Below, in pieces: positions 1 through 64,000 of a stretch of DNA of 64,000 nucleotides (the first letter of the stretch is position 1; each line of letters starts with the position of its first letter). This DNA is from Macrosoma leucophasiata (lineage: Eukaryota; Arthropoda; Insecta; Lepidoptera; Hedylidae), in the NCBI GenBank assembly GCA_036365455.1, contig JAWQUS010000027.1, positions 20,944,501-21,008,500 of the forward strand. The letters are read 5' to 3'. A program made the translations under genes and the position numbers. The notes under the pieces were generated by a model that was not told the DNA's origin, did no database searches, and worked only from the letters and a program-made list of their open reading frames with translations.

Positions 1-34
1 CTTTATTGTATAAATATGCGTTTGGTTCCAGACG

Positions 35-253
35 ATGTTGAAAATCGGTGGCGGTGCTGCTCTGATAGCAGCAATCGTCGCCGTCTTCGTGATCGCCACC
101 CAGGGTCGGGATCCCGACCTGGAGGCGCTGGAGCATGAGGGAAGAGAGTACATTCTCCATCTGGACAAGATGGCTGGCGAGAGGAAGAACAAAGCCAGTT
201 TAGCTGAGTGGGCATATACATCGAATATTACTAAAGATAATGAGGAAAGACGG
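35..253 (+). CDS. Ance: ACE-A exon 1: signal peptide and start of M2 domain
   Basis: 73 codons, ending in phase 0 at a GTGAGT donor. The N-terminus is [20 protein letters not shown], followed by ATQG as the likely cleavage zone, then the M2 hallmark [10 protein letters not shown]. The exon is preceded by CCAG and ACG. ACE-B has CACAG and ATG at the matching place, so the acceptor position is conserved between the two genes. If an upstream exon supplies codons, the hydrophobic stretch would be internal rather than N-terminal. Confidence 0.88.
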
Positions 254-3200
254 GTGAGTTTTGCAAACTTCTACATTTTCGACTACAAATTTGGAGAAGA
301 GTGAATTTTGGATAGTTCAATTATCTGACGTCTTACATTCGGGTTTTCTTCTCTGACGTTGGGTTCATCAGGATGAAACCACTGACGTGGAAATTTCTAG
401 TAGATAAAGTGGCAGGACAATAAAGGATTGTCCCAGTATTCAGTTACCATAAATCTGGATATCTCTAGTCTTGTGTCATCATCACACAAGTGTAGTTGGT
501 TATCCGCATACAATGCTGTATTTATAAGCTCATTGTCCGCATAGATCGACTGAATAACTAATCAAATTGTTGATGAATATTAATACCGTTCAACTAATAT
601 ACTAATTAAGTAGCGATAAATAACAGTTAATCGGTACCGCCCTATTGGAATGGTTTGACCGCCATTGTTCGGATGATTGATTGCATTAGACTTCAATACA
701 AAAAAAAATTAAATACATTATAATAATATGCAATGATATCATATTAACAGATACAAGTCCAACTAGAGCTATCAAAGTTAGAGAAGCAAGCGTGGGAGGA
801 GACGAAGATGTACAGGTGGCAAGACTTCCAAGACTTCACATTGAGGAGGATGTTCAAGAAATACTGTCAGCTCGGCGTGTCAGCGCTACCAGATGACAAA
901 TATAAGTTGCTGATGCAATCTGTTTCGGGGATGGAGTCGAATTACGCCACGTCAAAGATCTGCTCGTTTAAGAATTCGACCAAATGTGATTTAGCTTTGG
1001 AACCAGGTAAGACCTTTTAACTTTTATAAATTACGTAGTTAAAATTTTATTATTTAATTTTATGTAGTTCAAAATCCAAGGAAACTATGAAAAGATAGAT
1101 GGAGATGACGAGAGAGAAAGATGGACAGCAAAATTAGAGCAGAGGATGATGATTACGAGTTTTAGATAAGACATGTATTGATTTGTTTCACAAGAGTTTA
1201 TTTAGTTCATTAGAAAAAGTGCTTATAGACAAATGTTTGTAAGAAAACTCGTGGCTTTATGGGGTGATATTTTAGTTATAATATAGGTTCACATAATATG
1301 AAAGAAATTATCAAGTTTTTTATTTCTTCAAATGTATTGTTATTTTATTCACTAATGAAGGAAATAACCAACATATTTTTGAACCTATATACGGTCAAAA
1401 TAAATGTCCTCAATAATTTTGTTTGCACTTTAGAGATAACGGAGATATTCGCGAAGAGTCAAGACCCTGAGGAGTTGAAACACACCTGGGTGGAGTGGCA
1501 TAAGGCGGCCGGTGCTAGAGCGAGACAGAACTTCACACAATACGTCCAACTCGACAACGAAGCGGCTAAACTTAACGGTAAATATCATTATAATTGTAAC
1601 TGGTTTAGTCGTCTAGTGGTAACAGGCCACTTCTGCTATATTTGGGATACTGGGTTCGATGGTGGTATTGCGAATTCTTTATTTTTCTGGAAGTTTATTA
1701 GTGCCAGCTTCGGAATTTGCTAATGTGCCCGGAGACGTCGATAGGATCGCCACCTAAACTAACTTATCTGGCGAATCATGGATGCTTGCGATTAAATTCT
1801 TGATTATTTATATTATTGATTGTATCGTTTAACAAATCTATTTTATGTATGATTCATTACATCATTACTGCGATGTTTAATAATTTTATTTCATCCATAT
1901 TGTCAATATTCCCAAAACAATTTTTGATAAAAGATCTCTCAGAAGTATCAGGACATTATGTGGAATTTAATCTCCTCTGATGCCTTTTTATGACTACATG
2001 ACCTGAGTATTTTTTTGATAATATCAATGAGTATATCCTTGTCATGATATAGTACATATTAATTTATTCATAGAATCGCCATTCTCGACACTAATACTCG
2101 TGTTCTGATATATTTTTTTTTATTTGTAAAGTAACAATAAAGTATTTATATTGTTCAATTTTATAAACTTGCCATGACAGCAGTATGCGGAAGCTATGAC
2201 GAGGTAACCTAGTATTTTAAAACGTGTTGTCAGCAATAACCGATACGCAGAGCTGAGATTGGACATGAGTGAAAGTTCAAACAAACAATGTTTACGAAAA
2301 TATTTTGTATGATTGTTAAATGTCAAGAAACACTAAACCTTTAGAGGCAGAAATTGCTAGCGCTAATACAATTTTGAACGTATTAGTCGTTCGTCAAATC
2401 GTCAAGTCGTTAGGGTGTATTATTTTCTTTATGACGAAGAAATAATAATCCAGCAAATGCTTCGGTACAAGCAACAACTTTACTGTCGTTGTTAACGCAT
2501 TTATTACATGTCAGCTTGCATCTTCGCAACTTGTTATATTGTAAGCCTATTACTTAGTAAGTACAGTGGTCATCAAGAAATAATACACATTGAACCTATT
2601 AAAGTGACAATCGGCTAGTTTCGGCTTTATAGAGCGTTATCTTTGCTACACACTGCCTACGTAAGTATCCGTAGTCCGGTATTGGTCAAAACTTGATCAA
2701 AATGGTTGACAAACGTCAAATAGGTAAGGTGCGAAAAATATAACGCTCTACAGATCCGAAATAAGCCGATGTCTCTTTCTGAGGTCGATGTGCATTATTT
2801 CTTGTTGGATACTGAATCTGTTTTACCTTTTATTCTTTGAGGGTATTATCGTTATTTCTTAGCGAATTTATTATTCAACTTGATAATCAAATTGATATCA
2901 TATTATATATTTAATAAACACGTCATACAGTTGTCATGATATATCCTATACACGTGTCAGTCAAGAATTAATTTATTAATTCGTTATTAATTATGAATCT
3001 GATCATACACAAGAACAGAATACATTGTAAGATTCTAACTATAAATTAGTTACAGGAATTTACATTGGAATCCGTTAATACTCAGGTAGCTAATAAAATA
3101 ATAATCTTGAATGAGTTGCAATGAAATGCTTAATTATTTAATTTCTGTGAAAACTATCTGATTACCAAACATTGAAAAATACATTTGTACCTGCTGTATT

Positions 3201-6200
3201 TTTTTAAATTGACTGTAAAGCTTAAGAAAGATTGAGATTTTTGTTTGTTTTGTCACTGATAGTTTTCCGAATGGGAAAACACAATATCGTTTTTTTTCTG
3301 TTATAAATTCTTCTATTCTTCTTCATTTTTCTATTATTTTATCAATGATCTTATTTAGCTAGCCTAGCTTGGTCAGCTATTGATGTATCAAAATAAATTG
3401 TATAGAAATTCGAATAGTTTTATAGTTGTTTTCCAAGGCCGTGTTCTGAGCCCACATTTATTCCTTCCAGATTTCAAAGATGTAGCTGAATGGTGGCAAT
3501 CCGAGTATGAAGTACCTGATTTCGAGCAGCAGCTAGATAAATTGTGGGAGGACGTGAAGCCTTTGTATCAGCAACTGCACGCGTACGTGAGGAAACGTCT
3601 ACGCGACAAGTATGGCGATCATGTTGTGTCTGCGAGAGGACCTATACCGGCTCATTTGTTAGGTGAGTTCGATTTGTAATAGAAATATGATTTAAACGAA
3701 CCGCCCGTATTTATAAGTACCAGTCTTTAACATTTTTGTTATTGTTAACTTAATATTTATTGAACTTTTAATTCTAACTTTATCATTAATTTAATAAATG
3801 CGTAAGAAATACTTCGACGATTTGTGAACTTTTGTCATTGCTACCGTCGGCGTCGATTCAGCTTGCAAAATTATACATTTCTTAACATAAACTTAAAATA
3901 AATATGATAAATAGTAAATGCATTGTTTCCAAAAAAAATCTTATTAAGCGTATGCCCATAGTTATCTTGCGGCCAAATATTGAAACGTCACGCAAATTCA
4001 AGTGGTACTTAAAAGTTTTCTATATATAATACGTGCAAACGACGGAGATTTGAAAAATCATTCAAATGACGCAAAACACGTTCTCTGATACAATTAAAGC
4101 TCACCAAGAGATATTTCGGGTACTAACACCTCAAGCTGTAACAGCTATAACTGTGATATTTTTCGACTTTAGTCCCGTAACTTTACACAAAATAAGTTCT
4201 GATCTTTGCTCTATCATAATTTCAGGTAACATGTGGGCTCAAACATGGAACAACATAGAATCCTTCACTCGTCCATACCCAGACAAGAAAGAAATAGACA
4301 TAACAAATACCATGCGCGAACAGAACTTTACGGCCTTGAAAATGTTCCAAATGTCCGATGAATTCTTCAGATCATTGAATCTGACGGCGATGCCGGAGAA
4401 ATTCTGGAAGAATTCCATTATTGAGAAACCAACTGACAGAGAGATCGTGTGCCATGCGTCAGCTTGGGACTTTTATGACGGAGAAGATTTTAGGTAAACA
4501 ATGGATAATTATAAAATAAAATATGAATTTGACGTAAGAATAACTTTAACAATTCAAATACTTCGTGATAGGCCTAAATTTTGAAAAGATTTGTTTTAGG
4601 ATCCCGGTGCAGAATTATTTCGTTTATCGAGATAGGCTGCATACAATAATTTAATTAAAAATACTAGCGGTCATGTTTTGATAGGCAACCTAGTGGATTA
4701 TCTAGATCATAAATATTAAGTTTGCATTTCCTGCATATCTTGATGAACGAAATAATTCTGCTGCGGGATCGTAACTTATTTGTTACGCTTACTCAAGATA
4801 ATTTTTAGAATTAATTATATTGCTAAAGATTTTTAATTGCCTTAATATTAGATGTATATGATAGAAATATTATTCTCATTTTTATCGTATAAGCTAATAG
4901 GTAGATTAGTGTATTGCTGATACTAGTATTTTCACTTAGAAAAACTGTAATGTGGTGGCAGCTATATTCCAAATTGAAACATTTAACATGTCTGGCTTAA
5001 TTTTGAAGGATCAAACAGTGCACTACAATAGATTATGAATATTTCCAAACGACACACCACGAAATGGGACACATTCAGTACTTCCTTCAATATAAACATC
5101 AACCGGCGATATTCCGAGACGGAGCTAACCCAGGTAATTATTTTATTGTGACAGGATCAAAATGTGTACGGTGGTGAATTTTGAACATTTGAGGGTAGTT
5201 CATCATGAGATGGGTCACGTGCAATATTACTTGCAGTACCGCGATCAGCCTGTTGTGTTCAGAGCCGGTGCTAACCCAGGTGATTTATGATGTTTAATTT
5301 ATCATTGTTCATACTTCTTTTCATAAAGGGAAATTTTAAATTGAACTTTCTATCTGAGACATATGTAATGAAAATGATTTTTTTATCGAATGAATTGTAC
5401 TGTATGTCATGGTCTTTTTATCATCTTGGGTTTTAATTTATTATGTTTATATACAATTACTGGAATTAATATTTATCTGCTATACCTTTATCCTATCGGG
5501 AAAAAAAATGAATGGATTCCACGAATGTTTTAGTAGATCACTAATATAGTATTGTGTGGTACTATTTGAATTAATCATGCAACTTTTCTAAACATCACCA
5601 TCGTTCACTATCATTACACTTCAATAACTTTATGTGCTAACAACTTATATGTTATTACTTTAAAATCATCAGTTATCACATTATACACATAATCTTCAGG
5701 ATTCCATGAAGCTGTTGGAGACACAATAGCGCTATCAGTGTCTTCTCCCAAACATCTACGACGTGTTGGACTGATCAGTGGAGACGCTGAGGATGAACAG
5801 ACTGAGATTAATCAACTATATAAAATGGTAAGAGTAGCTGAGAAAAACGTCCAGTTACAGATCAGTATACATTGAATTGTAGTACAATAGCTTGTTTAGG
5901 TTCTATTGGTGAGGTGATAGAAGAAGTAAGTACTATCACATTTTCTTTTTCAAATGACAGACAACAAAATAAATCTATTTGTTTAGAATAATAATTAATG
6001 TAAATTATGATTATTGCACATAACCATCGCAGTAGGAGGAGCATTCACTTTTTTAAATACATATATTAAATATTATGTATTAATGAATTTATGATTCCAA
6101 CAAATTATTGAATAAAATAAATATTTTTTCATTCGAAACTGAATCTAATTCAGTTAGATTATTTAATAATTGTTATATTATTACATTTGAAGGATTGAAC

Positions 6201-9200
6201 AAAAGAAATGCTGTAATATCCTATTTTGCTCATCATCAATATACATTTTCAGGGAATAGACAAAATCGTATTCCTTCCATTCGCGTACACCCTAGATCTT
6301 TTCCGCTATGGGGTGTTCCGTGGCAAGACCAGTCCAGATGACTACAACTGTCATTACTGGAACCTGAGGGAACTGCTTCAGGGTGTGGAGCCTCCGGTCA
6401 ACAGGACTGAAGAGGACTTTGATGCTGCTGCCAAATACCATGTGTCTGCTGATGTGGAGTATGCGAGGTCAGTTAGAGTTGGATTTGGCTTGTTAATCAG
6501 AAAGCAGAGGTTCAGTTAAAGCACACCGCGGACATTCGGCTAAAATTCCATACAAACTCTTATTCTGGTTACATACTACACAGACATCAGTCAGGACGTG
6601 TTTTTACACGCACAAACACACCTCAGTGAGAGTCACTGCACGAGGCTCAAGGGTACTCAAGGGGAGGTGCGGGCTGCAAGAGGGGAAATCAGACGGAACG
6701 TCGAAGTGTCCATTCTATACGTAGTATTATTACATATTCTCTGGTTAAGGTGTCGAGACCCGCACAGGATTATTTTTCTACTTGTGCACCGAACAATGGT
6801 GGTCAAACCATTCCAAAAGGGTAGAAACTATAATATGCCAATAATATAATATGCGGTAGTATAATAATATAATATGCGGATTAGCGATCGCAATGGTGGT
6901 AGTTTTACCGCAGGACGCTGCTGCTCATCCCTTTTATTTACTCAGGGGCGGCTTAACCTATAGGGTGTGCAATACACACGGGCGCCGCCGTCTCAGGGGT
7001 CTCCCTGAGACACCATCGTCTTGAACCATCATGGCACAACAATGATGTGACAGAAGCGGAATTTTGTGTCAACTCGAAATAAACCTTATTTCACTATTTC
7101 AAGTTTACAAAATTTAGTGCGGCGATGTCAAACGACGGCAAAGTTAATAGTTATAGCCGCTGGAGGGGGGGGGGAGCTGTATTTTCTGCTGCCTATTGTA
7201 ATATTGGAATGGTCTCATCGCCATTGTTTAGTTGATTAACTGCACCAGCGGAAGAATTCTCCACCACTAGTTAGCGGCAACGTCACGTCCCTACATAATT
7301 ATGCGGTTTGCTTTTATAATATATTAAATCGATTATGCAATGTTTTCAGATACTACGTATCGTTCATCATCCAGTTCCAATTCCACCGAGCCCTGTGTCA
7401 GCTAGCTGGAGAGTATGTGCCTGAAGATCTCACCAAAAAACTCGTGGATTGCGACATCTACCAGAGCTTTGCAGCTGGCAATGCTCTTTCGTAAGTTTTT
7501 CTTTTATTTCTAAGTCTACTGTATTTGAAATTTCGATTGAATTTTTTCTCGCATCGTAATCTGTCAGGCCGCAAGACAATTGACACATATGACAATTGTA
7601 TTCTAATAGGGAATCGGACAACTTTTGAGAATGTGTCTAAAATTATTCTTTATACGTTTATTTTACCATTAAAAATATTATTTTTATTATTTAAACATGT
7701 TAAAGTACCAGAAACTAAACATACATTTTATAATTTCAAAAATGCCGCGTAAACGGTGCCGAATGACTCTGAACAATGTGACGTCAACTGTTTGCAATCA
7801 AAGTGAATCTTTTAATTTCATACGACTAACCAAGTGCAAATTAATTTTGTTGAATTTCGTATAACTTATTTTTCGTGTAAATAACGTAGAAAAAATCCAA
7901 AAAAAGAGCCAATAAATCAAAGTATCACTTGTGTTAAATATTTGTTGTACAAACATATGACGTCACGTCCTGTGACGTCATATATTTGAATGAATTGATG
8001 TTTCGTTCAACACGGAGCACAGATAAAAAATATTAAAATTATTACATTTTATTTTGCAATTTAAGAATATAAATCATTAATATTTCACGAAAATATTTAA
8101 TGAGTCATCGTATTATTTCACAAAGATTCATTCTAATCATAGTTTACATTTATTTTCCATAGCTGTCCGATTGCCTATTGTTCGTGTGCCGATGGTCCAA
8201 CTGCGGCCTTAATAATAGCCGTAATAACTGTCACAGAGACATAATAACTAAGGTCTCAGGTATACAAAGGTCCTGTAAAGGTGTGTAAAGGTCTTTGTCT
8301 GTAGGCTGCAGTCATCACTTAACATCAATGTGAACTGCATACTGCCACTTCGATTACAAAAAAAAAAAAAAAAAAATCAAGCTTCGTAGGCGACGATATT
8401 ATTTACGAACGACGATACGGTTTTTCTTCAACCTGACCACTTAATCGTCTTCAGTTCATATTATATTTTGACACTTTTGGCTTCCAGGAACATGCTCAAG
8501 ATGGGTTCTTCGAAACCCTGGCCGGACGCAATGGAGGCACTAACCGGCCAACGCGGTATGCGAGCTGACGGTCTACTGGAGTACTTCAGGCCGCTGCACG
8601 AGTGGCTTCAGGCTGAGAACCAACGAACCGGCGAATACATTGGATGGGAACCTAGCAAAATACGTGAGTACTATACAGGATGTGAAGCGCGCATGATCCC
8701 GCGGCTGTTGTAGATTGGAAACCATCTACTCGGTTAAGCAATACGGGCGCGGTCTGGTGTGTGATGGGTGACCGCTAGTAGCAAATTAAAATGCTCGTTT
8801 CCGTGCTTCGGAAGGCACGTTAAGACGTCGGTCCCGGTTACTATCAATAGATAGCAGTCGTCAAACCTTGTCGGAGGCCTTATGGGTGGTTTGAAAACAT
8901 CCGACATCGAGTTGGCCACTAACCCGTATCTCCACCAACCCGCATTGGAGCAGCGTGGTGGAGTAAGCTCCAGGCCTCCTCCCAAGAAGGGGAGAGACTC
9001 GTGCTCAGCAGTGGGACCTATCAAGGGTTGCACAGACCGCCTCCAAAGCCGACACATGGCTGTGACAATTATAAAAAGTACAAATTTTAAAAATTTGATT
9101 TTTTTTCTTCTTATTCTATTTTTTTTTCTGTAATGGAAGTGGCAAACAAGCATGCAGTTCATATTGATGTTAAATTATGACTGCAGCCTGTAGGCACCCA

Positions 9201-10100
9201 GCACCCACACAGAGGCCAGAGGTCAAAATGCAAATACGTTGCCACCCTTGAGACCTTAGTTGTTATGTCTCTGTGATAGTTATTACGGGGCCATACATTA
9301 CCATCTCACCGGAATATGATAATGTTGAACTACCATTTGGCGGCAGATACATTAGGTAATGCGCTGGTGCCTACGCCCTCGAGCTCTTACACTTGGAACT
9401 CTACCACCGCTTACATATTATATGTCGGTGATTAATTTTTATTTAGATACATGAACACATACGACCCGGTTAGTCCAGCGGTGTGAGATGACCGTTTGAT
9501 TTAAGGGTAGCGGGTTCGATCCCAAATATTTGTATGTCCTACAGATATTTGCTTCGGGTCGGGGTGTTTGTATATGTGTTGTATGTGTACAACGGCACCT
9601 ACGACACAGGTTTATAAACCTACTGTGGGGCTGTGAGTGTGAGCGTATTTTATTTATTTTTATTTAAAGAAAAATGGAAAGAAAAATTTGACTTCAGGCG
9701 AGACTCGAACTAGCGACCTACTGGGAATCTAGTCCAGCCGCTCTTCCAATTGAGCTACTGAAGTCCTGCCCGATTTGTCAAATCTTTCCTTCACATTTGT
9801 TGCCTTGCTTTATGGTAGCAGCAGCGCCATCTATTGCCAAACTATGCTAGTTAGGCAACCGATATAATAAAATATTTATTTTTCTTTCCATATTTCTTTA
9901 AATAAAAATATATTTCACAAGCATGTGTTAATGCGAAATAATATAAAACAATTATTAAGCTTATTTAATTTATTTTATTATTTATGTCTTACCCGAAATA
10001 CACCTTCAACCTTTTATCCCCAGAATACTGTACAGCGGAACAGCGAGCGGCACTAGACGCGACCCACACCGAGACCAAGTCCGAGGCGCACGACTCGTGA
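35..10100 (+). CDS. Ance: ACE-A: secreted angiotensin-converting-enzyme-like dipeptidyl carboxypeptidase (M2), complete, 11 exon positions
   Basis: Zinc metallopeptidase of family M2, which removes C-terminal dipeptides from extracellular peptides. Coding exons: 35-253, 751-1006, 1434-1577, 3471-3662, 4226-4493, then 5009-5133 OR 5155-5279, 5700-5827, 6253-6467, 7350-7490, 8488-8663, 10024-10100. All introns are GT-AG, the phases close, and either version gives 646 residues, near the usual length of single-domain insect ACE. Residues 1-23 form a hydrophobic signal peptide and there is no C-terminal anchor, so the product should be soluble and secreted. HEMGH is at 377-381 and the third zinc ligand is E405 in HEAVGD. 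Q276, H347, K505, H507, Y514, R516 and Y517 match human C-domain Q281, H353, K511, H513, Y520, R522 and Y523 (human numbering from memory), so an active enzyme is expected. One residue is missing in the loop before VCHASAWDF relative to ACE-B. The start is the first Met of the exon. A splice acceptor lies 3 nt before it, so an upstream exon lies outside the window. Orthology to Drosophila Ance or Acer is not resolved. Confidence 0.93.
254..750 (+). other. ACE-A intron 1
   Basis: AT-rich intron. A fragment near 600-690 (GTACCGCCCTATTGGAATGG) also occurs near 7190-7260, so it is a piece of a dispersed repeat. No gene is seen. Confidence 0.6.
751..1006 (+). CDS. Ance: ACE-A exon 2
   Basis: 256 nt, phase 0 to 1, with acceptor TTAACAG and donor GTAAGA. 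It encodes [12 protein letters not shown]..., then [11 protein letters not shown] and [19 protein letters not shown]. The two cysteines match the first conserved disulfide of ACE enzymes. Length and phase equal ACE-B exon 2 exactly. Confidence 0.92.
1007..1433 (+). other. ACE-A intron 2
   Basis: AT-rich intron with no recognised element. An apparently open reading frame runs through its end into exon 3 but has no coding character before 1434. Confidence 0.55.
1434..1577 (+). CDS. Ance: ACE-A exon 3
   Basis: 144 nt, phase 1 to 1, acceptor CACTTTAG and donor GTAAAT. It encodes [19 protein letters not shown], then [20 protein letters not shown], and is colinear with ACE-B exon 3. Confidence 0.92.
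1600..1795 (+). repeat. Degraded tRNA-derived SINE (family C) fragment
   Basis: It carries TACTGGGTTCGATGG (B-box-like), then CTAATGTGCCCGGAGACGTC and GGCGAATCATGGATG. The order matches the better copies at 28000-28300 and 48175-48475. Confidence 0.6.
2570..2815. repeat. Foldback MITE (family F)
   Basis: The arms starting CAAGAAATAATACACAT and ending ATGTGCATTATTTCTTG are inverted repeats of about 85 bp. The centre contains CTACGTAAG and a TCCGGTATTGGTCAAAACTT segment shared with copies at 14640, 23505 and 49700. Confidence 0.75.
3471..3662 (+). CDS. Ance: ACE-A exon 4
   Basis: 192 nt, phase 1 to 1, acceptor CTTCCAG and donor GTGAGT. It encodes [15 protein letters not shown], then [20 protein letters not shown] and GPIPAHLLG, a strongly conserved M2 segment. 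Confidence 0.93.
3663..5008 (+). other. ACE-A introns 4 and 5
   Basis: Two AT-rich introns, 3663-4225 and 4494-5008, flanking exon 5. No repeat or RNA gene recognised. Sequences controlling the exon 6a/6b choice may lie in 4494-5008, but none can be assigned. Confidence 0.5.
4226..4493 (+). CDS. Ance: ACE-A exon 5 (fused; two exons in ACE-B)
   Basis: 268 nt, phase 1 to 2. It encodes [13 protein letters not shown] (Q276), then [13 protein letters not shown] and [15 protein letters not shown] (H347). The same region in ACE-B is split by a 950-bp intron after the ISQ codons; here REQ and NFTAL are contiguous. One codon is missing compared with ACE-B, at PTDR-EIV against PNDGRDMV. Confidence 0.92.
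5009..5133 (+). CDS. Ance: ACE-A exon 6a: alternative zinc-motif exon, version a
   Basis: 125 nt, phase 2 to 1, acceptor TTTTGAAG and donor GTAATT. It encodes [16 protein letters not shown], then [14 protein letters not shown] and [13 protein letters not shown]. It has no stop or frame error and all invariant residues. It is 31/42 identical to the single ACE-B exon, closer than exon 6b (27/42). The pocket residues that differ from 6b are Q373, T374, F385 and D397. The 3' end contains GCTAACCCAG, which offers a CTAAC branch point for the acceptor of 6b. Its own polypyrimidine tract is weak. Confidence 0.88.
5155..5279 (+). CDS. Ance: ACE-A exon 6b: alternative zinc-motif exon, version b
   Basis: 125 nt, phase 2 to 1, acceptor TTGTGACAG and donor GTGATT. 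It encodes [16 protein letters not shown], then [14 protein letters not shown] and [13 protein letters not shown]. It is 25/42 identical to 6a, with zinc ligands and the disulfide Cys kept. It starts 21 nt after the end of 6a, so the two cannot be joined. Pocket residues are R373, V374, Y385 and A397. Its splice sites look better than those of 6a, so it may be the default form; this is inference. Confidence 0.9.
5280..6252 (+). other. ACE-A introns 6 and 7
   Basis: Introns 5280-5699 and 5828-6252, AT-rich, with no element recognised. The first lies just downstream of exon 6b and is the shared 3' partner for both alternative exons. Confidence 0.5.
5700..5827 (+). CDS. Ance: ACE-A exon 7: third zinc ligand
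   Basis: 128 nt, phase 1 to 0, acceptor ATCTTCAG and donor GTAAGA. It encodes [20 protein letters not shown], with E405 as the third zinc ligand, then INQLYKM. Confidence 0.93.
6253..6467 (+). CDS. Ance: ACE-A exon 8
   Basis: 215 nt, phase 0 to 2, acceptor ATTTTCAG and donor GTCAGT. It encodes [20 protein letters not shown], then [12 protein letters not shown], supplying K505, H507, Y514 and R516, which bind the substrate carboxylate, transition state and chloride in the family. Confidence 0.93.
7350..7490 (+). CDS. Ance: ACE-A exon 9
   Basis: 141 nt, phase 2 to 2, acceptor GTTTTCAG and donor GTAAGT. It encodes [20 protein letters not shown] and [15 protein letters not shown], beginning with Y517. 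Confidence 0.93.
8205..8377 (+). repeat. Repeat family A, partial copy with 18-A tail
   Basis: The 3' half of the 275-bp repeat (CTGCAGTCATCACTTAACAT, then TGTGAACTGCAT), ending in a run of 18 A. The tail supports spread by retroposition and sets the sense direction of the family. Confidence 0.75.
8488..8663 (+). CDS. Ance: ACE-A exon 10
   Basis: 176 nt, phase 2 to 1, acceptor GCTTCCAG and donor GTGAGT. It encodes [20 protein letters not shown], then [14 protein letters not shown] and YIGWEPSKI, the conserved C-terminal helix region. Confidence 0.93.
8683..9040 (+). repeat. 5S-rRNA-derived SINE (family B)
   Basis: It begins GAAGCGCGCATG. It contains CTCGGTTAAGCAATACGGGC and GATGGGTGACCGC, which match the internal promoter half of 5S rRNA. 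It ends CAGCAGTGGGACC. It lies in ACE-A intron 10, 20 bp past the exon 10 donor. Confidence 0.8.
9105..9412 (-). repeat. Repeat family A, near full length
   Basis: Antisense copy running from the T-rich end (TTTTTTTCTGTAATGGAAGT) to GGAACTCTACCACCGCTTAC, in ACE-A intron 10. Confidence 0.8.
9466..9660 (+). repeat. tRNA-derived SINE (family D)
   Basis: The head GACCCGGTTAGTCCAGCGGT (A-box region) and GGGTTCGATCCC (B box) resemble a tRNA. The body contains TTCGGGTCGGGGTGTTTG and GGTTTATAAACCTACTGTGG. Related copies lie at 48480, 56705 and 57460. Confidence 0.75.
9661..9955. repeat. tRNA-like foldback element (family E)
   Basis: Long inverted arms (AAAGAAAAATGGAAAGAAAA... ending in ...CATGTGTTAATGCGAAATAA). 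Inside the left arm is an antisense tRNA-like sequence (GAGCTACTGAAGTC end). It lies in ACE-A intron 10. Confidence 0.75.
10024..10100 (+). CDS. Ance: ACE-A exon 11: C-terminus and stop
   Basis: 77 nt including TGA. It encodes [20 protein letters not shown] and a short hydrophilic tail, with no membrane anchor. The acceptor is TATCCCCAG. No AATAAA is seen in the next 200 bp; the first one, near 10364, lies inside a hAT-type repeat. Confidence 0.87.
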
Positions 10101-10984: not shown

Positions 10985-11335
10985 GTAAATAAAATTATAA
11001 TAATTGTTTTATATTATTTCGCATTAACACATGCTTGTGAAATATATTTTTATTTTAAAGAGAAATGGAAAGAAAAATTTGACTTCAGGCGAGACTCGAA
11101 CTCGACTCTAATAGATGGCGCTGCTTCTACCATAAAAGCAATGCAATAAATGTGAAGGAAAGATTTGACAAATCGGGCAGGACTTCAGTAGTTCAATTGG
11201 AAGAGCGGCTGGACTAGATTCCCAGTAGGCCGCGAGTTCGAGTCTCGCCTGAAGTCAAATTTTTCTTTCCATTTTTCTTTAAAATAAAATATATTTCACA
11301 AGCATGTGTTAATGCGAAATAATATAAAAACAATA
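10985..11335. repeat. Complete tRNA-like foldback element (family E)
   Basis: Both outer arms are present: ATTGTTTTATATTATTTCGC on the left, and its complement GCGAAATAATATAAAAACAA on the right. The right half carries a sense tRNA-like sequence (about 11187-11262) with complementary ACTTCAG/CTGAAGT, D stem and a perfect 5-bp T stem. Confidence 0.8.
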
Positions 11336-13394: not shown

Positions 13395-14232
13395 TAGGGT
13401 TCCGTACCTTAAAAGGAAAAAAGGAACCCTTATGGGATCACTCGTGCGTCTGTCTGTCTGTCTGTCACAGCCAATTTGCTCCGAAACTACTAGACCGATT
13501 GAGTTGAAATTTGATGAATATATGTAAATTGGTGACCCAAAGATGAACACGTCAAGTAAAATAATAAATTTCAAACAGGGGGGCCACTTTCGGGGGGGAT
13601 AAATCAGAAAATTAAAAAAATAATCGTAAACTGTGTTGTGTGACATATTAAATGAAAGAGGTTGTTGTCAGTATCTCAGATACATTTTTATAATTTTTGC
13701 AACAAATTTGAAGTTATTTAAGAAGAACGACGAAAATTGACCACCCGTCCCCTCCCCTATCTCCGAAACTACTGAACTTATAATTTTGAAAAAATGTGGA
13801 AAATAGTTCTTTGCCTATAGATTACTGGAAAACCTATAAGAAGTTTGAGTATTCAAATTAAATCGAAAATTCTTAATAATCCCCCCCTGCCGGTACCACC
13901 GTAACCGCTATGTCCCTGCATTTCAAATCTGTAATATTTTCGAAAATATTTATTTATTGTTTAAATTATTTCGCATTAACACATGCTTGTGAAATATATT
14001 TTATTTTAAAGAAAAATGGAAAGAAAAATTTGACTTCAGGATTTGACAAATCGGGCAGGGCTTCAGTAGCTCAATTGGAAGAGCGGCTGGACTGGATTCC
14101 CAGTAGGTCGCGAGTTCGAGCCTCGCCTGAAGTCAAATTTTTCTTTCCATTTTTCTTTAAAATAAAAAAAAATATTTATTTAAATTACGGAACCCTCACC
14201 ACGCGAGTCGAACTCGCACTTGTCCGGTTTTA
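13395..14232. repeat. GGGTTCCGTA repeat, full-length copy
   Basis: It starts TTAGGGTTCCGTACC, has a (TCTG)n block at 13445-13465, and ends GTCGAACTCGCACTTGTCCG. This family is common in Lepidoptera. A tRNA-like foldback element is nested at 13955-14170. Confidence 0.8.
13955..14170. repeat. tRNA-like foldback element nested in GGGTTCCGTA repeat
   Basis: Left arm ATTTCGCATTAACACATGCT; internal sense tRNA-like sequence from about 14060 (GGCTTCAGTAGCTCAATTGG) to about 14135; right arm ends TTTTCTTTAAAATAAAAA. Confidence 0.75.
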
Positions 14233-23504: not shown

Positions 23505-23700
23505 ACAAGACTTCGGCTTATTTCGGGTCTGTAGAGTAGTCACCTTACTTATTTCTGGCTTGTCGACCATTTTGATCAAGTTTTGACCAATACCAGACTA
23601 TCAGTGCTTACGTAAGCAGTGTGCAGCAGAGATGACGCTATACGAATTCAAAATTAGCCGATTGTCTCTTTCGTAGGCCCGATGTACAATATTTACTGTA
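23505..23700. repeat. Foldback MITE (family F) abutting ACE-B exon 1
   Basis: CTTCGGCTTATTTCGGGTCT, then CAGTGCTTACGTAAGCAGTG, then TCTCTTTCGTAGGCCCGATG. The terminal part (GATGTACAATATTTACTG) is a diverged version of the usual end. It stops within about 10 nt of the ACE-B splice acceptor. Confidence 0.7.
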
Positions 23701-23708
23701 CTTCACAG

Positions 23709-23930
23709 ATGATGTTGAAGATACTAGTGGAGTTAGCTCTGGTCGGGGCTATAGCCTCGGTGTTCATAGTGGCTGCTCAAGGCCGAGCAGCTGAGAGAGC
23801 TGCTGAGGAAGCCGCTGGCAGAGCCTACATGAGCAACTTGGATGAGCTGACTTCCAAATTGAAGAATAAGAAGACTTTGGCTGCTTGGGCGTACGAGTCC
23901 AATATTACGACTTATAATGAGGAGAAGCAG
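23709..23930 (+). CDS. Ance: ACE-B exon 1: signal peptide and start of M2 domain
   Basis: 74 codons, phase 0 end at GTGGGT. It starts with two in-frame Met codons directly after a CACAG acceptor. The hydrophobic run [20 protein letters not shown] is followed by VAAQG, and the domain begins with [11 protein letters not shown]. The 190 bp before it belong to a MITE, so the acceptor region is close to or within transposon sequence. Confidence 0.87.
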
Positions 23931-26900
23931 GTGGGTTCAAACTTTTTTTTTGTAATGGAATTGGCAAACAAGCATGCAGTTCACATTGATGTTAAGTGAT
24001 GACTGTAGTCTATAGACACCCACACGAAGACCAAGGTCAAGATGCAAATGCTTTACCACTCTTGAGACCTAAGGTATTATGCCTCTGTGTCGGCAAATTA
24101 CAGGGCCGTACATTACCACCTGACCACTACCATTTAGCGGCAAGCATGTTAGGTAATGCGGTGGGCTGCCTACGCCCGCGAGCTCCGTCACTGGAGCCCT
24201 ACCACCAGTAAATCTAATTTTGCACATAGTGGTAAATAAGGTTTCTGACTGCTATGACGAGGCACCTAAAAATATAAATGTCGAATCATATGAACGCCGA
24301 AATGCGTACAGACACTTCCACGCTTTTTGAGTAAATTGAATCTACAAATTAAGTATTACATTAAGTTCAAATGTAATGAAGATAAATGCTTAGCTAAAAT
24401 TCTGTCCATAGCATATGACGTAAGGTTACTTATCATCAAACTTATTTCAGCTTCAAGTAGCATTAGAAGCAGCTGAAGAAGAGAAAGAATATTGGAAGGA
24501 AACAATGACGTACCTTTGGCACGAGTTCGAAGATGAAGACCTGAAGAGAAGGTTCCAGAAGTATTCGAAACTGGGCACATCAGCGCTACCTGAAGATCTC
24601 AATCAGAGACTGATACAGGCGATAAGTAACATGCAGTCCACATATGCTAAAGCCACTATTTGTGACTATAAAGACAGGACAAAATGTGATCTTCACGTTG
24701 AACCAGGTTTGTTTGAATGCTCAACAATTAGTAAAATTGTAATGTGTAGTGTTTTGTGATTCTGTTGAGTGTACAATAAAGAGTATTATTATTATTATTA
24801 AAATTAAAAAAGGACAAATGTTTAGTAGTAGTAAAACTGTAATATGTGGTGGTAGTAAAACAGTTATTTTTTACTTCAGACTAAAATTGTGTAGGAACTA
24901 AATGTAAAAAAAACCAGTCATTTATAGAATCGGTCATTTCTAGAATCGGTCATTTCGAGAATCAGTCATTTATAGAATTGTACATTTCAAGAATCGGTCA
25001 ATCCTAGACTAAACCAGTTATACAAACAATCGTCCGAAGACCGTAGTGCAGAACTGTAATTTCTGTCGCAGAAGCAAAAGGTTTCGGGAATCCGAAAAGT
25101 AATACATCTCATTGGCAACTACAGTGTTCGTAAATATGTCGTAATACAGTTCTTAACAGTGACCAATTCTTTGCCATTAGTATAATCTGTAAAGATATAA
25201 GCAATACATAATGTTTTCAAACAAATAATATTAATGTCCTTATTGCAGAGATAACAGACATATTTGCAACCAGCAGTGATCCTGAGGAACTCAAATACAC
25301 GTGGCTGGAGTGGCATAAAGCTGCTGGTGCCGCTTCAAAAGGAAATTTTACTGAATATGTGGCTATGGACAATGAAGCTGCTAAATTAAATGGTAAATAC
25401 ATTTGTTTTAATAACACTAAATCTGGGTTGCACCAATTTATTGTAACATTTTACATCCTTCTCTAACTTAAAAAAATATTTTAAAGTTAGAGAAGGATAT
25501 GAAATGTAACAATAACTTTAACAAATATCTTGGTGCAACCCAGGCTTAGTCACAAAGAAGTGAATTTGGGTCATCTAATATTTTAGGCCAAAGTTCAAAT
25601 ATACGTACAGAGCAAAAATTCATCTCCGATCTTATATAAATGGTTGTTTACTGTTGTCTTACCAACGAGCATAGGTCTGTCATCAAATCCCAATCAGCTC
25701 GTGACTTTGTAAGGCAGTAATTAAGAGAGAGCTATTCAAAAATAGCTCGAGCTGTAAAAGATGAAAATCTTTTTTGTCTCTTGAAAGTAGAAGTAAAAAA
25801 TACATGGAAAGTTTATTGACGTGATAACGTCTGATAAGTCAATGAACGCCGTCTGCACGCATGAAAAAGTGTCACGTTCCGCCTAAGCCGAGCTGCACGC
25901 TTGGCAGCGAGAGCATAGAGCAAGCGATAGATAGGCATGATCGACGTTAGCGTTCGGCTTGTGACGCATGTTTTCTCATAACCTTATTCCGTAAACTTGT
26001 CATCCGTTAACCGACTTTATATAAAACCTGTTTCGTTTGCATATTTTCTAGGATACGACAGTGTAGCAGAATGGTGGCTCAGTGAATATGAGACCGCCGA
26101 CAGCGAAGACCAGTTCGCGGCTCTCTGGGCTCAAGTCAAGCCGTTGTATCAGCAAATACATGCCTATGTCAGGAGACATCTTCGGCTCAAGTACGGCAAT
26201 GATGTGGTGCCAGCTAAAGGACCTATACCAGCTCATTTGTTGGGTATGCTCATCAATATTTTTATTCATAAAAAGCTATTTGAAAATGTCACGCAATTCA
26301 TAACTTTTACAACATTTTCCCTTCCTTATGCTTAATGATCTCAAAATATTATCTTAAAATAAAATGTATCAGTAGAGGAAAAACTATCTCAAAATGTAAA
26401 AATGTTTGACATTCCTTGATTTTTCTTTAATCCACTTATGTTGCATTATTTATTTTCCTCCAATTCTATAACAGGTAAGTATTCTTTAATAAATTTCCAG
26501 TAATCTTTAATAAATAAAACTCAAAATTATTGATATAATTATGAATTTAAACGTAAATATAACATGAAACCTTTTTTTAAGGTAACATTTGGGCCCAAAC
26601 ATGGAACAATGTGGAGAAATTTACCAAACCGTACCCTGATAAGCCTGATGTAGATGTGACTGCTGCTCTAATTAGTCAGGTAGTTTGCAAGCTTATATTA
26701 TGAATGACGAGAATGGATATATTTAAATTTTCACAATAACACATCCCATGAATTTTCAATTTTTCCTTTTGTAACTTATGGGATAGTGCCGAAACTTCGA
26801 AAATGGTAAAAAGTAAAGAAAAAACATGATGAATTCCATTAGAAAAGAAGCCCGAAAGAAAATACAATAAAACTAAAAGGAAAAATTATAAATTTTTTTC

Positions 26901-29900
26901 GTCCTGTAATATTTTTGTTTGTTTCCAAAATTATTGGGATTCAAATTAATTAATCACCGATCGCGTTCGTAATGAAGATGTAAGAAAGAGACTTTGTGTG
27001 AATGATAGTATCGGTGTAAAAATGAAAAAAGGCATGCTCCGATGGTTCGGGCATATAGAAAAAATGTCGAATGAGCGAATGACTAAACAGATATACAATG
27101 CGAATGTGGATGGTTGCAGAGGCCCAGGAAGACCAAGGCTGACCAACCATGACCAAATAGGTCGAGTTCTGTCTGATGGTGGGGTCAAAAGTCTTAGGAA
27201 TCGGCGTGCATGTATGAAGAGAATGATGAAGGTAGACGAGGCACGAGAGGTTTGTCTGAACCGGGATATCTGGCGCTCTACACTCTCTGCCTCCCCGTTA
27301 GGGACCTGGCGTGAAAATACATACATACATACATACAAATTAATTATTAGTGCGTTCGTTCTTAGAACCCTTACTTTCATACCATACTACTTTGAAACAA
27401 TTGAATAAGAAAAAGAATGTAAGTATGGGAAAACTTATGAAAAATAAACAAAAATAAAAATGCACATTAACAGTGAATAAACAGCTAATAAGTGGCTGAC
27501 ATACTAAACACTTTATCCCAAACCGATCCCAAAACATCGATTATAATGTATAAGTACCTACATATTTTTATTTCTAAATATCTGATGTCAAGGAAACCAA
27601 TAATTACTAGTATATTTTTCATACTTAAGAATTACACCGCATTGAAGATTTTCCAAACTGCCGAAGAATTCTTCAAGTCCTTGAACCTTAGTGGAATGCC
27701 TGATTTATTCTGGGAACGCTCAATCATTGAGAAGCCCAACGATGGTCGGGACATGGTTTGCCACGCATCTGCCTGGGACTTCTTTGACGGTGAAGATTTC
27801 AGGTACCTTTCAGCTAATTGAGATTATTTAGCTTTGATATTATTAACAGACGAAAGCGTCGGGGTGTAACTACCCATCGCTCTCTAGTGGAGGCGAATTC
27901 TACCGCTAGTGCAGTCAGTCAACCGAACAATGGCGATCAAACTATTCCCATATATGCGGTAGTAGATACAGTGTCTACAGTATCTTAACTGCCTCAGCAG
28001 CCTTGCAGGTAGCAGGCCACTACTACTACGCCGAGGTCCTGGGTTCGATTTCCGGGTAGGGGGTTATCAGAGATATTGGTGTAAAGTCCTTTATCTCTGG
28101 TTCTAATGCGAGTTTTCCATTTTCTGGTAATTTCCCAGTACCTCGAAGTTTGGTAATGTGCCCGGAGATGTCAACAGGCTCGCCACTTGTTACATGGGCC
28201 AAAAACATAACCGGAGAATAGTGGGTGTTTGCATGTATGCTTCAAAGCGTGCATTTACCTCTGCCTACCCCTTCCGGGATTACAAGCGTGATTTCGTAGT
28301 TAAGGTAGAACAATTAAATTGCAGTTCAGCAACATTTCCGAAAAAACAGCAATAATTTTTATTTTTTTTACAGAATCAAGCAATGCACCACAATCACGAA
28401 TGCATTCTTCAAGACCACGCATCATGAGATGGGTCATATTCAGTATTATTTGCAGTACAAAGATCAACCTGTCGTTTATAGAGAAGGCGCGAATCCTGGT
28501 ACGTATACGTGACAGATTAATTATAACAGATATCTGTGTACTGATAATCTGTTAATTCCGGGACAGAGGCAAAACACTGTGTTGACTTATGTGAGTGACT
28601 TGACGTCTAAACAGACGTCAAGTCAACGCACAGTCTGGTTATTATATAGATTAAAGAAAAAACGGAAAGAAAAGTCAAATTTATCTTTCCGTTTTTTCTT
28701 TAATTTCTAAAGTTCATGTGTTATTGCGAAAAATAAATAGTACAATTTTTTGTAGATGTACAGGCATTTAAACTGATATACTGGCAACAGTATTTATTTA
28801 CCATCAATGTGAACTGTGTGCTTATTTGCCACTTCATGATAAAACAAAGTACGTATAGTTGACATCGGGCGGGACTCTAGTCCAGCCTTTCTCCCAATTG
28901 AGCTACCGAAATCCTCACTCGATTGTCGATTTTTTTTTGCAGTAGCGTCTTCTATTGCTTAAAATCCATATTACTTAATTATTTTGTTTATAGGTTTCCA
29001 TGAGGCTATAGGTGATGTGATAGCGCTGTCTGTGTCTACTCCGAAACATTTGAGAGTTATGGGTCTGCTCGAAGATGGACCAGAGGATCAGAAATCGAAT
29101 ATAAATCAACTCTACAAAATGGTGACCATTTTATGTATATTTGATAACATTTTCATGTATTAATGGTCGCTTTTCATTTACTAACCCACTCTCACTAACT
29201 CATGACACGCAAAAATATTTCACGCCAGTTTTGAAGAACCCCATATTGCAGCGCCGGGTGAACACCTCAGAAGGAAGTTCATTCCACAATTTGCACGTTC
29301 TGGGCAGGAATTAATGCGTGAATCGGACTATTGAGCACTTACAAATATCCAATCGGAGTTTTGGCGGGTACCTTGAAAGATGCGTGTGGTGCTCTTATTT
29401 TATTTTATCTTCTTGGTGTATTTTGAGTTATATAAAATAAAGTTGGTGGAATTTTGTTTAACATAGGCTTATTATAGTGCTCGTGTATAGTGAAATAGAA
29501 TAAAAGTGCGAAAACACGTTCTTTCGGGTTGCCTCCAAAACTTCATTGTAAATGTTCTGGTAAAGGAGCCATCGCTTTACTCAAATTACTGTGACTCTGA
29601 CTGACTGACGGACTGATAAATTGACTGACTCACTCTGACTTTTACGTTGCTTATTACGAATACGAAATATCGTTTTACTTGACACTGGCTTCGCCGAATC
29701 CAACTCGGCTGGGCAGCGTTCGGGAAGTTAAGGAGCGTTTTCTCGTCAAACATCCCGCAGGCCTTTGAAGACGAAAGTCTTTAACCAGTGCGTTTTACCC
29801 GTGATGACCTACGGTGCCGAGACGTGGTCTCTCACTATGGGTCTCGTACGAAAGCTCCAAGGCACTCAGCGGTCAATGGAAAGGGCTATGCTCGGCGTTT

Positions 29901-32900
29901 CCCTACTGGATCGAATCAGAAATGAGGAGATCCGTAGGCGAACGAAAGTCGCTGACATAGCCAAGCAGATTCCAAGCTGAAGTGGCAATGGGCAGGGCAC
30001 ATAGCTCGGAGATCCGATAGCCGCTGGGGCAAAAAGGTTCTCGAGTGGAGACCACGATTCGGCAAACGCAGCGTAGGACGTCCACCTGCAAGATGGACCG
30101 ACGATCTAGTCAAGGCTGCAGGTACCCGCTGGATGCACGTCGCTTCCGATCGGTCGGCATGGAGGTCATTGGGGGAGGCCTATGTTCAGCAGTGGATATG
30201 ATGATGATGATGAGGACACTGGCAATATGCAAAACAAGCGATGCCATAATTTTTTTTTTAAAAAAGTATCCAATCTGTTTGGGTGGAATTTTACTTTGAT
30301 GTAGGCATGTAGACGATGGCACCAGATCGAACAGTTCATCTGAGCACTGACCATTGTAAATGCGGTAGAAAATGCACAGACATCCGATGTCTCCGCGCAG
30401 ACTCAAATTTTCGAGTCGATCTGTGATTTCTGGGTCGTTCACGATTTGAATGGCACGTTTTTGAATGAACTACGAACCCCTTTTTTTAGGGTTCAGGGGC
30501 ACAAGGGCTGACGTCCACGAATACGGTACTATACCGAGATGGTAGGAGAGCGAGAACAGGCGCCTCAGAATGACGTGTTATTGCATTTTCTACCTTATTA
30601 AATGGGTTAAACCACCATTGTTTGATGTTCGAATGTTTGTTTGAATGCATCAGCAGAAAAAATATCTTCCACTGGTGGGAACCTCCCCAGTTACTCAATG
30701 TTCAATTGCTTCCTTTTCTTTAAAATCACGAAATTTTGGTGACAATTATGCTTGAAGTGATCAAGCAGAGATTATTTCCCAAAATATACATTGTAGTTAT
30801 TTTAACTTCCTATTCTTTTCCAGGGCTTAGACAAGATAGTGTTCTTACCATTCGCATACATATTAGATCTATTCCGCTACGGCGTGTTCCGTGGTACAAC
30901 TTCGATGAGTGACTGCAATTGTCACTTCTGGAAACTTCGCGAGACGTTCCAAGGAGTCGAACCACCAGCGCCGAGAACTGAAGAGGACTTCGACCCAGCT
31001 GCCAAATACCATGTTTCAGCTGACGTTGAATATATGAGGTGAGCATGTCAAGGAAACTTTGTGATCAGATGCTAGGGTTATAATGATGATAATAGTGTCC
31101 TCCAGACCAAATTTTGGGTCATGTAAGCCAATCTGAACGAAGACTAGCGAACTATGAAGGAGATGTACAAGTGATGTTAGCGTATGCGCAAACGCAAGTG
31201 CACTCTCTATTCCCTCATGTTCACAGCCCGGTGCGATGGCAATCTGACCAGAGAGTGATCGCGCGCAAGATCAACGGCTTTTCTTGATCTCGCAGCCACG
31301 GGTATCAGACTTTCGGCCACTGATGGAGATTTTCTTATAGAAAAAATCGATAACAGTTTTTCCCAATATATTCATAGTAAGTACAACCTCCTGTAGCCTA
31401 TAAACATCTTCATGAAACCAGAGACTTCAATGTAGATAGGTTGCCAAACCTGAAGCTTCAGTAGCTTAGTGGCTAAGCGGCTGAATTGGTAATCCTGAGG
31501 TTCGATTCCTGCCCGCAGTCAAAATGTTCTTTCCATTTTTTCTTAAATTTTTTAATTCACTCGCTTGTGCTTTAACGAAAAAGATATAGATATAATGCTA
31601 ACTTTCTCCTGTTAACTTTTTTTTATTTATTGCAGATACTACATCTCTTACATAATTCAATTTCAATTCCACCGATCTCTCTGCGAGTTAGCGGGAGAGT
31701 TCACTCCTGGAAACTCCGATAAACTCCTCTCCAACTGCGATATCTACAGAAGTGCAACTGCTGGCAATGCTTTGGGGTAAGAGATTTATTAGTTTATTTA
31801 TTTATTTTAGTAAAACCAACAGCTTTAGCAATCATAATAATATAAAATGAATTTGACAACAGAGAGCTAATTAAAGGTTCCCGCAAATATAAAACAAATT
31901 ATACACCTTTAGTGCGGGAACACAACACGATAAAACTACATGACATTTAATCTACGCACCCTACGTGAAGGCTTATTTTAAATCAACGCATAAAATACTT
32001 AACATAAATAATTTTAACAAAAAGACATCAAAAAGCTAAAAACAATTTAGTTACTACATAATTTACTACGAGAAACTAGTTAGAACATAGTTTTACTCTA
32101 TTACTTTAAGATCGGAAGACGAAGTGGAGGCAAGCCCCCTACGAGGTGGACCAACGACCTGCTGAAGGTTCGGGAAATATATGAAGGAGGGCCCAGGACT
32201 GTTCGTTGTGGCAATCTTTGGGGAGGTCTTTGTCCAGCAGTTTACGTCTTTTGGCTGAAATGGTGATGACGATGATGATGATTCCCTTTACGCTTCTTTC
32301 AGTAAAATGCTGCAGTTAGGCTCATCTAAACCTTGGCCGGACGCGATGGAGATGCTTACTGGACAGCGCAACATGGATGCAAGTGGTGTTCTGGAGTATT
32401 TCCAACCATTGTATGATTGGTTGAAGGTCGAAAATGAAAAAACTGGAGAGTATATTGGATGGGAACCCAGTACTGTCCGTAAGTATTTTTATGACTTAAA
32501 AGAGACATTATACCCATTGGTCTTCGGTCACTCTTGACCACCTCTAGTTTTTATTGAAGCACATGGATAAAAAAAAATCCATATCGCCCTCGTTCTGCGG
32601 CAATGTTCCCAGAAGGCTGGCGGCATTGCCAAGTTGAATGGCTAATATTCATATCTCGTATTTATTTGTCCTATTTGATTTAAATGTAAATTGGAATCGG
32701 GTCCGAATGAGAAATACTATCTTTATTTTAAAAGATATTCTCTTTCTTTTTTCTTTACTCTTTGCTGTCAGTATGTAAAAGAGGAAGTGAGACATTCTTC
32801 TGATATAGGTACTTCGTACATTAGTATATTATGTTTAGTTTTATCGTAGTGATATTGTATGTTCTTAGGTTTTCGCGAGCTGCACTCATTGAAATAAAAC

Positions 32901-41732: not shown

Positions 41733-42059
41733 TTTTATATTATTTCGCATTAACACATGCTTGTGAAATACATTTTATTTTAAAGAAAAATGGAAAGAAA
41801 AATTTGACTTCAGGCGAGACTCGAACTCGCGGCCTACTGGGAATCTAGTCCAGCCGCTCTTCCAATTGAGCTACTGAAGTCCTGCCCGATTTGTCAAATC
41901 TTTCCTTCACATTTATTGCATTGCTTTATGGTAGCAGTAGCGCCATCTATTGCCAACTATGCTAGTTAGGCAGAGCGGCTGGACTAGATTCCCAGTAGGC
42001 CGCGAGTTCGAGTCTCGCCTGAAGTCAAATTTTTCTTTCCATTTTTCTTTAAAATAAAA
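41733..42059. repeat. tRNA-like foldback element with 12-bp TSD
   Basis: Left arm with antisense tRNA-like sequence (ending GAGCTACTGAAGTC at about 41880), a centre (CATTGCTTTATGGTAGCAGT), and a right arm with the sense 3' half of the same sequence (41973-42027). AGAACAATGGCG is duplicated at 41721-41732 and 42060-42071, inside another repeat. Confidence 0.82.
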
Positions 42060-45849: not shown

Positions 45850-46030
45850 TATTATTTTTCGCAATAACACATGCGAGTGATCTTTAGAAATTAAAGAAAA
45901 AACGGAAAGAAAAACGGTAGGACTTCGGTAGTTTAGTGGTAAAGCGGCTGGACTGGTTATCCTGAGGTCGCAGGTACGATTCCTGCCCGAATCCAAATTT
46001 TTCTTTCCGTATTTTCTTTAATTTCTAGTT
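45850..46030 (+). repeat. tRNA-like foldback element, second subfamily, intact
   Basis: Arms TTTTTCGCAATAACACATGC and TTTCTTTAATTTCTA. Inside is GACTTCGGTAGTTTAGTGGT, then GGTCGCAGGTACGATTCCTG, tRNA-like with A and B boxes but a mutated T loop. Confidence 0.7.
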
Positions 46031-63837: not shown

Positions 63838-64000
63838 TATTTTTAAAGAAAAATGGAAAGAAAAATTTGACTTCAGGCGAGGCTCGAACTCGCGACCTAC
63901 TGGGAATCTAGTCCAGCCGCTCTTCCAATTGAGCTACTGAAGCCCTGCCCGATTTGTCAAATCTTTCCTTTACATCTATTGCATTGCTTTATGGTAGCAG
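63838..64000. repeat. tRNA-like foldback element, cut by window end
   Basis: AAAGAAAAATGGAAAGAAAA, antisense tRNA-like sequence from about 63869 to 63945 (GAGCTACTGAAGCC end), then the centre TGCATTGCTTTATGGTAGCA. Confidence 0.75.

Follow-up and report, generated by a model that had tools for sequence, protein, structure and literature searches.

A gene for an ACE-like peptidase in the window, the whole stretch of 64,000 nt of Macrosoma leucophasiata DNA that was analysed, carries two consecutive versions of the exon that encodes its zinc site. A fundamental question is what the second version is for: would both be used, and would the choice between them alter the enzyme? The explanation that we regard as very probable is that exon 6 is duplicated in tandem and spliced in a mutually exclusive manner, giving two isoforms with altered peptide specificity. 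According to this model, exon 6 of the lepidopteran single-domain ACE gene would have been duplicated in an ancestor common to the moths and butterflies sampled, and mutually exclusive splicing would now yield two isoforms of 646 aa that differ at 17 of the 42 positions of the zinc-site segment. Exclusion would operate in two layers, the first being a 21-nt spacer without room for an intron together with a likely branch point for 6b in the last codons of 6a, and the second being a frameshift in any message that contains both exons or neither. The catalytic residues would be kept in both isoforms and the side chains of the S1' and S2 subsites would differ, for which reason the switch would most likely alter which peptides are cut.

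The gene model at window positions 35-10100 encodes a 646-aa single-domain ACE-like peptidase. It has 11 coding exon positions, of which position 6 occurs twice, and every junction is GT-AG.

35 to 10100, forward strand: ACE-like gene (peptidase M2), GT-AG junctions and open frame, 646 aa
35-253, 751-1006, 1434-1577, 3471-3662 and 4226-4493, forward strand: coding exons 1 to 5
5009 to 5133, forward strand: exon 6a, 125 nt, 42 residues, checked base by base
5155 to 5279, forward strand: exon 6b, 125 nt, 42 residues, checked base by base
5700 to 5827, forward strand: exon 7, common to both isoforms, holding GFHEAVGD
5700-5827, 6253-6467, 7350-7490, 8488-8663 and 10024-10100, forward strand: coding exons after 6a or 6b

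Both isoforms match Pfam family PF01401, a family with many solved structures, across the whole domain (residues 33-616), with 833.3 bits for the 6a isoform and 835.0 bits for the 6b isoform against a cut-off of 23. This match and the HEXXH zinc motif point to peptidase M2 (ACE) as the gene product. The motif HHEMGH in 6a or 6b and the downstream Glu of exon 7 provide what we take to be the zinc ligands, the third presumably being Glu411 within GFHEAVGD. Residue numbers are those of human testis ACE, in which the second His of HHEMGH is 383. Both isoforms share the catalytic parts that lie outside exon 6.

The initial annotation described two consecutive 125-nt exons of the same phases, with AG acceptors, GT donors, HHEMGH and no stop, and a base-by-base check agrees with that description. 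HHEMGH and GANP are found in 6a and 6b alike, neither exon contains an in-frame stop, and their entry and exit phases are identical. The two exons are thus adjacent, homologous and equal in phase and size, as is characteristic of mutually exclusive exons. They are identical at 77 of 125 nt and at 25 of 42 residues, a count that reproduces the one first given, and 17 residues differ. At the first, second and third codon positions 28/42, 32/42 and 18/42 are identical, a pattern of protein-level constraint. The proposal that this is an old, selected duplication holds, based on the third codon positions and on the presence of both versions across lepidopteran orthologues. A recent duplication is ruled out by the nucleotide identity of 77/125 and by the third codon positions. 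When the gene's own 6a protein is searched against the window with tblastn, residues 360-402 match two places within 1-10100 (E = 2e-15 for the 6b copy) and no second copy of any exon but 6 is found within 1-10100, in line with the claim that every other exon is single; in this search the exon-3 match extends into the intron (1352-1576) and overlaps residues 127-158 of the exon-2 match.

How would the gene avoid using both exons at once? Either 6a alone or 6b alone gives an open protein of 646 aa, which bears out the suggestion of two full-length enzymes that differ only at the catalytic centre. Joining 6a and 6b together shifts the frame and brings a stop after residue 408, and omitting both shifts the frame and brings a stop after residue 362. 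Neither double inclusion nor skipping leaves a functional product, as is characteristic of mutually exclusive exons. The geometry of the locus bears on the same question.

5134 to 5154, forward strand: spacer between 6a and 6b, 21 nt, with the 6a donor GTAATT and the 6b acceptor GACAG
5125 to 5129, forward strand: CTAAC, candidate branch point for 6b from a motif scan, within the last codons of 6a

The spacer measures 21 nt, compared with 420-1893 nt for the other introns of the gene. In the 60 nt upstream of 6b, CTAAC is the sole match to the pattern YTRAY. Its branch A, at 5128, precedes 6b by 27 nt and also precedes the 6a donor; when the pattern is relaxed to YTNAY, a single further site appears, at just 10 nt from 6b. 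The putative use of CTAAC as the 6b branch point is weak on its own since this motif arises easily from Ala-Asn codons. The available portions of two sources place the steric minimum between donor and branch point at ~50 nt (PMC5740500, PMC7969005). With a whole spacer of 21 nt and a candidate branch point upstream of the donor, the distance here would fall below that minimum, as in exclusion of the steric type. Because of the short spacer, the branch-point candidate inside 6a and the ~50-nt limit, direct splicing of 6a to 6b would be very unlikely, and any message that escapes the steric block is removed by the frame rule. Inclusion of both exons is ruled out by the frameshift and the spacer taken together. 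The spacer and the CTAAC candidate are known from the window DNA alone, that is, from one species. Comparison of splice sites shows that the 6a donor matches CAGGTAAGT at 8 of 9 positions and the 6b donor at 7 of 9, with a range of 6-8 for the gene's nine further donors. At its acceptor 6a has AAG, with A at -3, and those of 6b and the nine other acceptors are CAG or TAG; the 6a acceptor may be a weaker, regulated site.

The initial annotation proposed a look for both exons in other Lepidoptera, and at the protein level this look is positive. Three protein searches were run with the best 120 matches listed for each, and 83 matches (P0038-P0120) were aligned; 32 of the 83, those whose identity to the window protein is 78% or higher when exon 6 is set aside, are treated as orthologues. 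The list of orthologues is incomplete, since each search lists the best 120 matches and the clusters of the database, formed at 90% identity, may merge isoforms of one gene. Among the matches listed, the 32 lepidopteran orthologues divide into 16 of the 6a type and 16 of the 6b type. Sources of the 6a type among these matches are Euphydryas, Danaus, Spodoptera exigua, S. litura, Ostrinia, Plutella, Achroia, Plodia, Choristoneura, Bombyx and Arctia, and those of the 6b type are S. exigua, S. frugiperda, Phthorimaea, Diatraea, Chilo, Loxostege, Scirpophaga, Aphomia, Galleria, Cydia and Eumeta. Window 6a is identical at 39 of 42 residues to the Euphydryas, Danaus and Plutella proteins, and window 6b at 38 of 42 to the Eumeta japonica protein; S. 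frugiperda P0060 is nearer 6b than 6a by only 29 vs 28 of 42. Two S. exigua entries (P0050 and P0059) are 605/606 identical outside exon 6 and 28/42 identical inside it, and these separate database records would be annotations that each take one exon of the same gene. The window is the one DNA in which both exons are seen together, and for the other species we infer their presence in one gene. The 6a- and 6b-type proteins derive mostly from genome annotation and are evidence of conservation rather than of usage.

For further comparison, near-duplicates (P0045, P0046, P0047, P0048, P0061, P0063, P0064 and P0071) were omitted to leave 24 proteins, and the 26-row analyses add the two versions of the window (13 6a-type and 13 6b-type rows in all); P0199, P0200 and P0116 are left out of both counts. 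Among these non-redundant proteins from the matches listed, the nearest neighbour by exon 6 is of the same version in 24 of 24 cases, compared with 9 of 24 when the remainder of the protein is used. A maximum likelihood tree of exon 6 places all 6b-type sequences and P0116 in one clade with support 92; no supported 6a-type clade appears in this tree, in which 42 residues resolve little beyond the 6b clade. A tree built from the remainder of the protein mixes the versions by species. It pairs carriers of 6a with carriers of 6b (Choristoneura-Cydia 100, Achroia-Galleria 100, P0055-P0082 100, Ostrinia-Loxostege 97), holds both S. exigua entries together on near-zero branches and sets the window sequence beside Euphydryas and Danaus with support 99, a position that agrees with a lepidopteran source, probably a butterfly. 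Exon 6 tracks version while the rest of the protein tracks species, and for this reason the duplication would predate the split of the sampled lineages, with both copies kept. One scan of viral contigs for relatives found none.

Which version is older, and how far back does the pair go? P0116 branches outside all orthologues, with supports of 100 and 98 on either side, and its segment is 6b-like with E at 379; this would put the origin still earlier, on a margin of 29 vs 27 of 42 for 6b over 6a. The segment of the caddisfly Arctopsyche (P0200) is intermediate between 6a and 6b. At position 369 the 6a residue Q is present in 14 of 15 chosen outgroup sequences. The 6b residue M occupies this position in 85 of 239 ACE proteins, among them some from sawflies, spiders and molluscs; these 239 are the fetched proteins with a readable motif and were in part drawn with a 6b query. 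The latter count indicates that position 369 changes readily or that both states are old, and it tempers the idea, prompted by the outgroup Q and by the lower variability of 6a, that 6a may be the ancestral type.

Evidence that resembles transcripts comes from three proteins on short contigs. P0055 is 6a-type (648 aa on a 2111-nt contig), P0082 is 6b-type (648 aa on a 2154-nt contig) and P0116 is 6b-like (645 aa on a 2131-nt contig). The same protein spans 10 kb in the window gene, so these ~2.1-kb contigs look like assembled spliced messages, and all three, which carry the source label 'lgn', would be of that kind. P0055 and P0082 are identical at 539 of 606 positions outside exon 6 and on that ground probably come from different species. 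We infer that Macrosoma leucophasiata itself uses both exons. An unlikely alternative is that only one is in use in this species and that the other is a relic or pseudo-exon. Such a reading would accord with the greater variability of 6b (mean pairwise difference in the 26 rows 0.232, backbone 0.160) than of 6a (0.118, backbone 0.158) and with the 6a acceptor, whose AAG is a weaker site than the YAG found at the others, but both exons are intact with matching donors and a complete zinc motif, the window copies retain 39/42 identity to Plutella (6a) and 38/42 to Eumeta (6b), and cDNA-like contigs encode full-length proteins of each type.

What would the swap change in the active site? Among the matches listed and the window, the 13 6a-type and 13 6b-type sequences never overlap at positions 369, 375, 377, 379 and 381; the version-specific residues (6a / 6b) include Q / M at 369, Q, E or A / R or K at 379 and T / V or I at 381. 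Position 403 nearly separates the versions, being D in 13 of 13 6a-type sequences and E in 8, A in 3, N in 1 and D in 1 of the 6b type. Table 3 of PMC12025037 compares Drosophila AnCE with the two human domains at subsite positions where they differ, and in the portion of that source available to us five of these positions fall within exon 6, namely 376, 379, 380 (S1'), 391, 403 (S2). At four of them the two window exons carry different residues (379 Q/R, 380 T/V, 391 F/Y and 403 D/A); this enrichment at human domain-selectivity positions is not significant (4/5 vs 17/42 overall, P = 0.077). Two of these positions are inconsistent across species, since 380 is T in 9 of 13 6b-type sequences and 391 is Y in 3 of 13 6a-type sequences. 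Position 391 is equivalent to Tyr369 of the N domain, and the accessible part of PMC3875237 reports that an N-selective inhibitor binds 36-fold more weakly when this Tyr is replaced by Phe. The prediction with the best conservation behind it is that 6b places a basic side chain at S1' position 379, and function beyond the existence of two versions, both kept, is likewise a prediction.

A somewhat less likely alternative than disuse of one exon is that the pair would serve mainly as an on/off switch through frameshifted, degraded message, with the protein difference incidental. Messages with both exons or with none are indeed frameshifted, but an on/off switch does not need a second conserved catalytic version, the version-specific residues (e.g. 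369, 379, 381) are kept across the sampled species, and the 21-nt spacer hinders double inclusion.

The window also contains a second ACE gene, whose exon 6 serves as an internal control.

23694 to 35500, forward strand: second ACE gene, in tandem and in the same orientation, with matches from ~23.7 to 35.5 kb
28374 to 28498, forward strand: exon 6 of this ACE paralogue, 125 nt, one copy found

A scan of both strands of 27804-28993 finds one zinc motif and no second one near the paralogue's exon 6. The double exon 6 is particular to the first ACE gene of the window. Paralogue-type ACE proteins of other species are ~61-67% identical to the protein of the first gene. The tandem ACE genes invite the thought that 6a and 6b derive from two paralogous genes and that the window is a chimera or misassembly, which is hardly credible given that the exons lie 21 nt apart within one gene, that the S. 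exigua proteins of the two types are 605/606 identical elsewhere, that the backbone tree mixes the types and lacks two gene clades, and that proteins of the paralogue type are so distant and the window paralogue has one exon 6. Two further proteins are of note in their own right. P0080 from Doratifera vulnerans is an ACE of the paralogue type and goes under the name of venom polypeptide precursor in its source, and P0199 from Dendrolimus kikuchii (697 aa, 6a-like) has the zinc motif HQEMGR in place of HHEMGH and is probably no longer a peptidase. Overlapping open frames at 33315-34301 on the reverse strand, between late exons of the second ACE gene, read like what we presume to be a broken mariner-type transposase. 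The 64 kb also hold several tRNA matches.

9689-9765, 11181-11257, 14059-14135, 41805-41881 and 63868-63944, both strands: five tRNA-Ser matches
45921-45995: tRNA-Thr match

The anticodon is AGA in four of the tRNA-Ser matches and GGA in one, and the tRNA matches of the window are possibly tRNA-derived repeats.

Returning to the tandem duplication with mutually exclusive splicing, what would such a switch achieve? Insect ACE is tied to metamorphosis and to reproduction, and little is known of its natural substrates, as is generally held and as the consulted part of one review has it (PMC10926456). Regulation of the exon choice by tissue, sex or stage would be expected. We hypothesize, at roughly even odds, a lepidopteran ACE specificity switch under splicing control that predates the families sampled, in which 6b, with its conserved basic residue 379 and altered S2, would be used in another tissue, sex or hormonal state than 6a and exon choice would do the work of the two vertebrate catalytic domains. 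Swapping the zinc core by exon choice would be a direct way to alter what an enzyme cuts, not where it is made. A pair of natural enzymes that differ only within a 42-residue segment offers a ready experiment for assigning substrates and is also suited to probing the residues that distinguish the two human ACE domains. The 21-nt spacer and a branch point apparently in the upstream exon make the locus an extreme, testable case of steric exclusion.

How does this gene compare with known systems? Drosophila AnCE and the Bombyx 'ecdysteroid-inducible ACE-related gene product' share PF01401 with it. Outside exon 6 the Bombyx protein P0054 matches the window protein at 85% identity, and it has a 6a-type exon; the window gene is likely its orthologue. 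In the open literature on insect ACE and alternative exons, outside which most subscription papers lie, no description of alternative active-site exons in any ACE was found in the available parts of the sources, including PMC1325048, PMC10926456, PMC4764262, PMC4351530 and PMC12758981. The Cydia 6b-type entry is named 'isoform X2', showing that automatic annotation already lists several isoforms, and the exons may therefore sit in databases without having been described. Mutually exclusive splicing is a known mechanism, and at the ACE zinc site it is new to the literature searched.

Other ACE genes with more than one transcript achieve this by different means. According to the parts of the reports at hand, Anopheles AnoACE3 resembles our proposal in having more than one transcript but uses alternative first exons (PMC1325048), and pea aphid ACE3 also has more than one but does so through a retained intron of 80 bp, which introduces an early stop (PMC4351530). 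Double- and single-domain forms of Bombyx ACE from one gene are mentioned in the excerpted review (PMC10926456), which is a different matter from the exon-6 swap. A likeness in splicing is OGDH 4a/4b, cited with alpha-tropomyosin and Dscam exon 17, where tandem alternative exons are subject to steric exclusion as would be the case here, and in many mutually exclusive exon clusters double inclusion breaks the frame (PMC5740500 and PMC7969005, in the sections available). Unlike those cases, the window gene has a spacer of 21 nt and a candidate branch point inside the upstream exon, and the piece that would be swapped carries the zinc motif and catalytic Glu of a peptidase. A likeness in outcome is to the N and C domains of mammalian somatic ACE, which like the window gene represent two ACE active sites from one gene. 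Residues that differ between those domains include 379, 380, 391 and 403, as in the window pair, in the portion of PMC12025037 that lists them. In mammals both sites lie on one polypeptide, or an inner promoter gives the testis form (PMC1325048, in part), whereas in the window gene a single site would be swapped by exon choice.
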